Below are positions 10,267 to 13,155 of a stretch of DNA of 64,000 nt, piece after piece. The notes under the pieces are model-generated. The model was not told the DNA's origin, ran no database searches, and saw only the letters and a program-made list of their open reading frames with translations. Numbering within the stretch: the first letter of the stretch is position 1; every line of letters starts with the position of its first letter. This stretch comes from an uncultured Pelagibacteraceae bacterium (lineage in GTDB: Bacteria > Pseudomonadota > Alphaproteobacteria > Pelagibacterales > Pelagibacteraceae): the NCBI GenBank assembly GCA_902557215.1, contig CACDZM010000003.1, positions 62,001 to 126,000 of the forward strand. The letters run 5' to 3'. Position numbers and translations under genes: made by a program.

Positions 10267-11408
10267 TGAAAAAAATTGCCATTATTGGAGCCGGTATTTC
10301 TGGGTTATTCATTGCGAATTTATTTAAAAAAAGTTCAAATTATCAAATTACAGTTTTTGAAAAGAGTTTCTCAATTAACTTAGATGAAGGTTATGGAATT
10401 CAATTATCGGTTAATAGCGTAAAACTTTTAAATCAAATTGGGTTTGATGAGTTTAAAGGTGATCAAAAATTCAATCCAGATAAAATAAATTTTTACTCTA
10501 TCAAAAGTTCGAATAAGATATGTGATTTAAATATTTCTGACTATAATTCAGCAAACTGCAAGTATACCACTTTAAAAAGATCTGAATTAATTAAATTTTT
10601 AAAAAAAGATTTAGAAAACGTAATTAAAATAAATCACAGCATTTCAAAGATAAATCAGCAAAATCAAAAGATCCAAATTATATTTGAAAATAATGAGACT
10701 TCTGAATGCGATCATTTAATCATTTCTGATGGAGTTTTTTCGAAAAGTAAAAGTCTTATTTTAGAAAATCAAACACCTCCAAGATATAATAAAACATTAG
10801 CTATTAGAGGAACAATACCTATTTCTCGAAAAATTGATTGCAGAAATATCTCATTATTTTTAGGACCAAATTTTCATTATGTAATTTATCCAGTTAATCA
10901 AACTGGAGATTTAAATTTCATAGCCATAATGAAATATAAGCTTAGTAAAGAGGAGCAAAAAAACTACTCATTATTTAATGATGCAAATTTTATAAAAAAG
11001 ATTTTACACAATGTTCCAATAGAGATGAGAGAATTTCTTGACAAAATTAAGAAATTAAAAATATTTCCGGTATTCGTAAGTGATAGTTTTTTTAAAACTA
11101 AAAATAAAAACATTCATTTAATTGGAGATGCTTTTTTTGCCTTTCCACCATCATTTGCCCAAGGTGCCTCCCAGTCAATAGAGGGTTCATATGAATTGTT
11201 CCAGAATATAGAAAATAATACTGAAAGTAAGTTTTTTAAAAATAGAGTAAATAAAACAAGAATGATTAATAATAGATCAAAGCTTAATCAATTCACATTT
11301 CATTTATCTAATCCTTTAACAAGGTTTTTTAGAGACACTTTTTTAAAAAGGCTGGTCAACAATAAAAAGTTTTTAGAAAATTATTTGGGAAAAATTTATA
11401 GAAATTAG
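10266..11408 (+). CDS. FAD-dependent monooxygenase (UbiH/aromatic hydroxylase type)
   Basis: 'KKIAIIGAGISGLFIANLF', 'HLIGDAFFAFPPSFAQGASQSIEGSYEL'. Confidence 0.82.
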   Translation: MKKIAIIGAGISGLFIANLFKKSSNYQITVFEKSFSINLDEGYGIQLSVNSVKLLNQIGFDEFKGDQKFNPDKINFYSIKSSNKICDLNISDYNSANCKYTTLKRSELIKFLKKDLENVIKINHSISKINQQNQKIQIIFENNETSECDHLIISDGVFSKSKSLILENQTPPRYNKTLAIRGTIPISRKIDCRNISLFLGPNFHYVIYPVNQTGDLNFIAIMKYKLSKEEQKNYSLFNDANFIKKILHNVPIEMREFLDKIKKLKIFPVFVSDSFFKTKNKNIHLIGDAFFAFPPSFAQGASQSIEGSYELFQNIENNTESKFFKNRVNKTRMINNRSKLNQFTFHLSNPLTRFFRDTFLKRLVNNKKFLENYLGKIYRN

Positions 11409-12475
11409 TTGTTTGAAATTAATCTTTGTCTTAAATAATCTATGGGAACAGCCCGACCATTTAAATTATAATACCAATAAGTCCATCCATTACAACTTTC
11501 AGCACCTAAAATTGTAGCAGCTACTTTATGGATTGAACCTTCAGTTTGGTCGTGTTTGATACTGCCATCAGCCATGATCTTTGCACTTATCTTCTTTTTA
11601 TTATCAAAAATGGTGGTCCCCGGTTTAATTATTCCCAATTCAACTAATGAACCAAAAGGTATTCTTGGTTTAGATCTACCATTCTGAATAGTATCTAAAT
11701 AATTATCTTCAATAGGTTTTGTTTTCTTTAACCTTTGTTGAGCAGCTCTAAAATAGGTTTTTTCTTTTTCAATTCCACAATAATTTCTTCCTAATTTTTT
11801 AGCAACTGTTGCTGATGTTCCAGATCCCAAAAAAGGATCTAAAATTAAATCCTCTTTATTTGAAGTTGCTAATAAAATTCTATGAAGCAGAGCCTCAGGT
11901 TTTTGTGTGGAATGTACTTTTTTACCTTTATTTTTAAGTCTTTCTGAGCCATTACAAATTGGCAATTCCCAGTTAGACCTCATTTGAAGATCGTCATTCA
12001 AACATTTTAAGGATTGATAGTTAAAAGTGTATTTTGATTTTTCAGATTTTGATGCCCAAATTAAAGTTTCATGAGCATTGGTAAAACGGGTTCCTCTAAA
12101 ATTTGGCATAGGATTTTTTTTATTCCAAATTACATCATTTAAAATCCAAAAACCTAAATTTTGAATTGCCGTACCAACTCTGAAAATATTGTGATAACTT
12201 CCGATTACCCAAATAGCTCCATTTTTTTTCAAAATTCTCTTACATTCGCTTAACCATAAGTAGGTGAAATCATCGTATTTTTTGAAATTTTTAAATTGAT
12301 CCCATTTATCATTTACCGCGCTAACTTTGGATCTATCTGGTCTTGTAAGTTCACTTTTTAATTGTAAATTGTAAGGAGGGTCTGCGAAGATTAAATCAAA
12401 CGTTTCATTAGGAATTTTCTTTAGTTCTTCTAAACAATCCCCATTAATTAATTTATTTTTTAAGTTTAAATTCAT
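11405..12475 (-). CDS. ccrM: CcrM-type adenine-N6 DNA methyltransferase (predicted GANTC)
   Basis: 'LINGDCLEELKKIPNETFDLIFADPPYNLQL' (DPPY), 'DPFLGSGTSATVAKKLGRNYCGIE' (FxGxG), C-terminal RAMA-like region 'ADGSIKHDQTEGSIHKVAA'. Start moved to Met15. Confidence 0.93.
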   Translation of the reverse strand: MNLNLKNKLINGDCLEELKKIPNETFDLIFADPPYNLQLKSELTRPDRSKVSAVNDKWDQFKNFKKYDDFTYLWLSECKRILKKNGAIWVIGSYHNIFRVGTAIQNLGFWILNDVIWNKKNPMPNFRGTRFTNAHETLIWASKSEKSKYTFNYQSLKCLNDDLQMRSNWELPICNGSERLKNKGKKVHSTQKPEALLHRILLATSNKEDLILDPFLGSGTSATVAKKLGRNYCGIEKEKTYFRAAQQRLKKTKPIEDNYLDTIQNGRSKPRIPFGSLVELGIIKPGTTIFDNKKKISAKIMADGSIKHDQTEGSIHKVAATILGAESCNGWTYWYYNLNGRAVPIDYLRQRLISNN

Positions 12476-12488
12476 TTTATAAAAATAA

Positions 12489-12517
12489 ATTAGACTCCAA
12501 AAAGATTCTTGGGTCAA
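12489..12517 (-). promoter_or_regulatory. Predicted sigma70 promoter of ccrM with two embedded GANTC sites
   Basis: Minus strand: TTGACC (12517-12512), 17-nt spacer, TCTAAT (12494-12489). GANTC at 12504-12508 (spacer) and 12493-12497 (overlaps -10). Confidence 0.65.
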
Positions 12518-12566
12518 CCTACGATTGAATTATTTGAACTCAATATGTGTGGTTCTTTTCGGAGAT

Positions 12567-12580
12567 CACAAGATATTGTG
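12567..12580. repeat. Perfect inverted repeat CACAA-GATA-TTGTG
   Basis: Read directly; rnhB-ccrM intergenic region. Confidence 0.75.
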
Positions 12581-12594
12581 TTTCTACGTGAAAC
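12580..12594. repeat. Perfect inverted repeat GTTTC-TACGT-GAAAC
   Basis: Read directly; abuts the rnhB stop codon and touches the dyad at 12567-12580. Confidence 0.75.
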
Positions 12595-13155
12595 TTATTT
12601 ACAACTGATAATTGGACTAAAAGTAACTCTATGGTGTTTTGTTATACCAAGTTTTTTTATTGCTTTTAAATGTTGCTTAGTCCCGTAACCAAAATTTTGA
12701 TCCCAATTATAACCATTAAACTTTTTTGACAAATTTGTCATCATTTTATCTCTAGAGACTTTGGCAATAATTGAAGCTGCAGATATAGATGGTATTTTTT
12801 GGTCTCCCTTTATTACAGCTTTAAGATGATAATTTTTAATTTTTGGCAATTTATCACCATCGATAAAAATTAAGTGGGGTTTTTTTTTGAGCTTTTTTAT
12901 TGCCCTTTTCATGGCAAGTAAACTTGCTTGTAAAATATTTTTTTTTTCAATTTCCGCAACTGTTGCTCTACCTACTGCCCAGATTGAATTTTTTTTGATA
13001 TATTTGGATAATAATTTTCTGCTAGATTTATTTAAACTTTTAGAGTCCTTTAGTAATTTTTTATCTATAGTCTTATTTAATATTACTGCAGCTGCATAAA
13101 CTGGACCAATTAAACTCCCTCGTCCGACTTCATCTACTCCTGCAATCAATCTCAT
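12595..13155 (-). CDS. rnhB: Ribonuclease HII
   Basis: 'IAGVDEVGRGSLIGPVYAAAVIL', 'SISAASIIAKVSRDKMM'. Confidence 0.95.
   Translation of the reverse strand: MRLIAGVDEVGRGSLIGPVYAAAVILNKTIDKKLLKDSKSLNKSSRKLLSKYIKKNSIWAVGRATVAEIEKKNILQASLLAMKRAIKKLKKKPHLIFIDGDKLPKIKNYHLKAVIKGDQKIPSISAASIIAKVSRDKMMTNLSKKFNGYNWDQNFGYGTKQHLKAIKKLGITKHHRVTFSPIISCK

Follow-up and report, generated by a model that had tools for sequence, protein, structure and literature searches.

Two GANTC sites inside the ccrM promoter of a Pelagibacteraceae bacterium: a conserved architecture by which CcrM may sense its own methylation

In Caulobacter crescentus the ccrM promoter is reportedly activated by CtrA and carries two GANTC sites in its leader, as Stephens et al. 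are said to have described in 1995. Direct methylation control of this gene has been called 'most probable' (PMC3973325). The GcrA-dependent promoters of Caulobacter (mipZ, ftsZ, podJ and ctrA P1; PMC3667746, PMC4287350, PMC3708114) are sigma70 promoters whose GANTC lies within or next to the stretch from −35 to −10, and the GANTC-rich promoter of the Agrobacterium cell-cycle regulator gene gcrA has been proposed to sense replication through hemimethylation (PMC11514494). GANTC sites have also been counted upstream of alphaproteobacterial cell-cycle genes, with no conclusion drawn on methylation control (Brilli et al. 2010; PMC2877005). The ccrM locus described here resembles each of these systems in part. 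As in Caulobacter, GANTC lies at the ccrM promoter and methylation feedback on ccrM can be proposed; this much of the Caulobacter precedent, which the earlier note on this DNA had invoked, stands. However, in Caulobacter the promoter is of the CtrA type and has its sites in the leader, whereas the sites here lie inside the −35/−10 region, in a group from which CtrA is reported to be absent. The GcrA-dependent promoters share the placement of GANTC and the presence of GcrA in the genome, but they drive genes of cell division and development; the gene served here is that of the methyltransferase itself, and its promoter has two sites, of which one overlaps the −10. Likewise, the Agrobacterium promoter differs in its gene, gcrA, and in having six sites within 250 bp. 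No description of the double-site architecture was found in the open-access literature on ccrM promoters, on SAR11 and GcrA, or on Rhodobacter ccrM.

The window, the whole 64,000 nt stretch analysed, belongs to a genome of 1.1 Mb with 29 % G+C, values that fit SAR11. On its minus strand, ccrM (11405–12475) encodes a CcrM-type adenine methyltransferase of 356 aa, with an N6_N4_Mtase domain containing DPPY and a C-terminal RAMA domain (Pfam PF01555 and PF18755). The best PDB match of the product is 6pbd, Caulobacter CcrM (E 1e-138, residues 8–351); this match and the domains identify the enzyme, at the level of sequence, as CcrM, in agreement with the earlier note. Against NCBIfam NF050803 the product aligns over its full length with 576 bits, under the equivalog cut-off of 830, and it is therefore filed as a CcrM homologue and not as an NF050803 equivalog; the name of the model and its threshold suggest that the cut-off is tuned to Caulobacter-like members. 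A ccrM match is present in 109/151 genomes of the genus, and in 21/22 of the most complete. Some relatives within the genus carry a second, shorter methyltransferase that is 41–47 % identical to CcrM (G140:C2:31263-32048, G073:C22:5413-6093, G064:C2:85802-86521). Upstream of ccrM and on the same strand lies rnhB (ribonuclease HII; 12595–13155, minus strand), an arrangement found in all 216 loci compared. No terminator of rnhB was detected.

Upstream of ccrM the minus strand reads TTCAATCGTAGGTTGACC-CAAGAATCTTTTTGGAG-TCTAAT-TTATTTTTATAAA-ATG. The −35 element TTGACC (12517–12512) and the −10 element TCTAAT (12494–12489), both read from the sequence, are separated by a spacer of 17 nt, and a further 13 nt (12476–12488) separate the −10 from the ATG at 12475. 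With the −10 hexamer set at −12 to −7, GANTC site 1 (GAATC on the minus strand, 12504–12508) occupies positions −26 to −22 within the spacer. Site 2 (GAGTC on the minus strand, 12493–12497) occupies −15 to −11 and overlaps the −10, its T and C being the first two bases of the hexamer. The two sites are spaced 11 bp apart, approximately one helical turn. This promoter had been read correctly to the base in the earlier note, and both GANTC sites were found where it had placed them. The start codon is supported by nearby stops, which close the upstream frame in many relatives, and by a near-constant gap from the −10 to the ATG (12–15 nt in 131/138 relatives). Provided transcription starts at the expected place, the predicted 5′ leader would be only about 5–8 nt long.

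For comparison, 216 ccrM loci of the same order were gathered, comprising 139 distinct upstream regions in the window's genus. The TTGAC of the −35 is invariant in these (139/139). Sigma70 promoters prefer A at the second position of the −10. At this position (−11) all 139 regions of the genus have instead a C, which belongs to GANTC site 2. A standard sigma70 scan, which demands A here, does not call the ccrM promoter because of this invariant C; TTGACC-N17-TCTAAT is conserved as a pair of hexamers within the 16–18 nt spacing of sigma70 promoters, but its −10 fails the scan. The ccrM promoter appears to keep GANTC at the expense of its −10. No CtrA box (TTAA-N7-TTAA or TTAACC) was found before ccrM, there being no TTAA in 12476–12594.

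A second element, the imperfect inverted repeat TTCAATC-N4-GTTGAC (12513–12529, minus strand), overlaps the −35. Across the genus it hardly varies; in 55/59 genus genomes it has a single occurrence, the one at ccrM, and the control gave one match in all. Related inverted repeats (TTCWAYY-N3-RGTTGAA) are found elsewhere in the ccrM promoter of genera g2, g3, g4, g8, g9 and g10. The element looks like a candidate binding site for a factor dedicated to ccrM, perhaps an activator with the role that CtrA has elsewhere, or a protein that shields the GANTC sites. A regulon built on the palindrome TCAAYY-N3-RRTTGA was considered and rejected, as the other matches in the window's own genome appear intragenic.

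Two features of GcrA-dependent methylated promoters, an encoded gcrA and a GANTC between −35 and −10, are present. GcrA is encoded in the window's own genome (G000:C5:35888-36322, E 5.7e-37), in 54/59 genomes of the genus and, outside it, in each of the 12 genera tested; in a relative within the genus both the DNA-binding and the sigma-binding parts were matched. As a cofactor of sigma70, GcrA works through sigma2 to promote the formation of open complexes at methylated promoters (PMC7403470); at the fully methylated ctrA P1 promoter it leaves a footprint that covers −35 to −10 (PMC3667746). Feedback through GANTC on gcrA itself was rejected, no site being present in the 250 bp upstream of gcrA in five genus genomes. 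ctrA has been reported absent from Pelagibacter (PMC2877005, PMC7987155), which would close the Caulobacter route to ccrM. In a Pelagibacter MAG, a genome other than that of the window, 71–95 % of GANTC was methylated, and the methylated fraction varied along the ori–ter axis as replication-dependent hemimethylation predicts (PMC9516812). Seven complete genomes of the genus have ccrM at a distance of 264–281 kb from dnaA, and in one complete genus genome, whose chromosome measures 1.34 Mb, the gene lies approximately 135 kb from the skew origin. The gene is likewise origin-proximal in Rhodobacterales (PMC8116508). With ccrM close to the origin, its promoter should turn hemimethylated early in each round of replication.

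Taken at somewhat better than even chances, the ccrM promoter is a sigma70-type, self-sensing and replication-coupled promoter that is independent of CtrA and read by RNA polymerase with GcrA. The promoter holds the target sites of its own product within the RNA polymerase footprint and could in this way read the methylation state of its own DNA. Passage of the fork through the origin-proximal ccrM would leave both GANTC sites hemimethylated, RNA polymerase and GcrA would then transcribe ccrM at a different rate, and newly made CcrM would methylate the chromosome together with its own promoter, resetting the system. Such a promoter would stand in for the CtrA control of ccrM in Caulobacter, and it is probable that CcrM monitors and tunes its own synthesis during replication of the chromosome. 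The start of transcription, the action of GcrA at ccrM, and the effect of methylation and its sign are inferred. As to the sign, higher activity of the hemimethylated promoter, a homeostatic negative feedback, is somewhat favoured over activation by methylation, since a maintenance enzyme needs homeostasis; activation is also possible, given the presence of GcrA and the weakness of the −10 at position 2. Precedents are available in both directions: methylation lowers the activity of the Agrobacterium gcrA promoter, even in Escherichia coli without other alphaproteobacterial factors (PMC11514494), and it activates the ftsZ and mipZ promoters (PMC3708114).

The strongest alternative is activation that depends on methylation: the weak −10 would require GcrA at methylated sites, full methylation would drive ccrM, and the result would be positive feedback and epigenetic memory. 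The lack of A at −11 in every genus relative, together with the presence of GcrA, is in keeping with this, as is the switching-on of ftsZ and mipZ by methylation; moreover, in Caulobacter one class of temporally activated promoters is made up of those in which GANTC lies between the −35 and the −10 (PMC4287350). However, positive feedback on a maintenance enzyme would risk irreversible loss of the mark, and in a model of Caulobacter, ccrM is transcribed from hemimethylated DNA alone (PMC2217572). This alternative is rated as less likely than not.

Less probable still is that the two sites are kept because a factor or RNA polymerase requires their DNA sequence, their methylation being irrelevant. 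Throughout the genus site 2 reads GAGTC, so that conservation of this site alone could reflect another constraint, and other spacer columns, as well as TTCAATC-N4-GTTGAC, are just as invariant. The behaviour of site 1 argues against such an explanation. The ccrM promoters of the genus fall into two offset groups, A (81 sequences, site 1 at −26) and B (58 sequences, site 1 at −27); on the tree the site moves by one base four times while the length of the spacer stays constant. By parsimony, the fixed letters G, A, T and C of site 1 have undergone 0, 0, 2 and 3 changes in group B, with 5 at N and 7–16 in the adjoining spacer columns; in group A the fixed letters have undergone 2, 0, 1 and 2 changes, with 0 at N and 10–16 in the three preceding columns. 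Within the spacer columns a rank test for site 1 gives the modest values of 0.07 (group A) and 0.012 (group B), a few other spacer columns being conserved too. Across 76 distinct core promoters all four letters are nevertheless found at N of site 1 (38 GAATC, 20 GACTC, 5 GAGTC and 4 GATTC), and other lineages have both sites as GANTC with different N letters and flanks. What these promoters share is the motif that CcrM recognizes, and conservation regardless of methylation is improbable. That the two sites belong to the ccrM promoter and look selected as GANTC is supported by these comparisons; to this extent the autoregulatory switch proposed in the earlier note is upheld.

Whether two such sites could meet in one promoter by accident was considered from the frequency of GANTC in the window's own genome, using 462 kb and 455 ORFs from a simple ORF caller. 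The density of GANTC is 1.43 per kb inside ORFs and 2.03 per kb in the intervening DNA, and 21/455 ORFs have the motif within 50 nt upstream; at least two sites are found at 2/455, namely ccrM and a umuD-like gene. From this genome alone, the double GANTC before ccrM is not significant. In the relatives, TTGAC-N3/4-GANTC-N6/7-GANTC is kept in 129/139 distinct upstream regions of the genus, against a Markov expectation of 0.00, so that both sites are retained at the promoter position and the earlier proposal withstands the check on conservation that had been set for it. Individually, site 2 is kept at exactly −15 in 138/139 of these regions, and a GANTC at −26 or −27 is present in 130/139. Chance, in the sense that GANTC is common enough for two to fall in one promoter, can draw on the 2/455 ORFs of a single genome but is made untenable by this conservation across relatives and by the recurrence of the double site before ccrM in several orders, and its probability is practically negligible. 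Coding overlap was likewise rejected as the source of the conservation, since in many relatives the upstream frames run into stops and since the distance to the ATG changes in one-base steps.

In 59 genus genomes the looser pattern TTGAC-N2..6-GANTC-N4..9-GANTC gives approximately one match per genome, nearly all at ccrM, and a wider regulon with the double-site promoter was rejected, since the pattern in the genus is almost restricted to this gene. Three side observations concern GANTC elsewhere in this genome. Within the window (1–64000) the motif is strongly under-represented, with 103 sites found against 179 expected from dinucleotide shuffles. The umuD-like gene (L275:14882-15307, contig C4 of the same genome, minus strand) has three GANTC within approximately 60 nt upstream of its start. 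Additionally, a second match to TTGAC-N-GANTC-N-GANTC (L221:1501-1526) lies near a contig end, pointing at the 3′ end of an rfbA-like gene, and is at most a candidate promoter.

Beyond the genus, the sister family f2 has two to three GANTC within 60 nt before ccrM in 15/15 loci, for example TTGACC-TC-GATTC-TATTTT-GAATC-ATATT, with the sites again 11 bp apart. Within some members of this family (L197–L212), short inverted repeats such as CCGCT-ATGAA-AGCGG put the ccrM start codon in a possible hairpin loop. Genus g4 has mostly two to three GANTC before ccrM, g3 two to three and g2 one to two, while g8 is without them and g10 has none or one; CcrM and GcrA are retained in both g8 and g10. Since g8 and most of g10 have lost the sites but kept ccrM and GcrA, the device is dispensable.

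Records of named Alphaproteobacteria were gathered by a search with Caulobacter CcrM. TTGAC-N-GANTC-N-GANTC precedes ccrM in 14/23 records of the Rhodobacterales group (expectation ≤0.01), and the same double-site pattern is found before ccrM in Parvibaculum sedimenti, a Marinicaulis MAG and three other MAGs. Outside the order of the window the spacings are mostly 3 and 6, and the pattern lies 79–165 nt upstream of the beginning of the matched coding region. None of the 40 Caulobacterales records has the pattern before ccrM (expectation ≤0.01); these have mostly one or two GANTC 24–40 nt before the ATG, downstream of TTAACC-type (CtrA-type) motifs. In an independent draw of 193 alphaproteobacterial genomes, with the reversed pattern as control, approximately 100 matches to the double-site pattern were found versus approximately 30 for the control. 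Of 30 class-wide matches retrieved, 13 directly precede ccrM, in eight families. Magnetospirillum-like bacteria, Parvibaculum and other Alphaproteobacteria (L363, L366, L383, L352) have six to seven GANTC crowded into the 120 nt before ccrM. Judged by its occurrence in these genomes, the double-site ccrM promoter is old and widespread. The earlier note had placed its switch in a minimal genome lacking much of the usual regulation; as an explanation, genome minimization is not supported, given the presence of the double-site promoter in Rhodobacterales and in the eight families, mostly Alphaproteobacteria with larger genomes.

Few cells on Earth are as numerous as those of SAR11 bacteria, and the findings bear on how cells without CtrA time the methylation of their chromosome. 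In the widest reading, which is tentative and rated somewhat short of even, an ancient, CtrA-independent and replication-coupled switch would operate across much of the Alphaproteobacteria, including the most abundant bacteria of the ocean: the fork would hemimethylate two origin-proximal promoter sites, ccrM would be expressed in a pulse, and its product would erase the signal, with the CtrA-driven promoter of Caulobacter as a derived exception. The control of ccrM in Caulobacter would in this way become one of several variants. Because the motif is short and also present in genetically tractable Rhodobacterales, the idea can be tested in a laboratory strain. If the promoter does sense its own methylation, then a maintenance methyltransferase, one promoter and the replication fork would suffice for a cell-cycle-coupled circuit.
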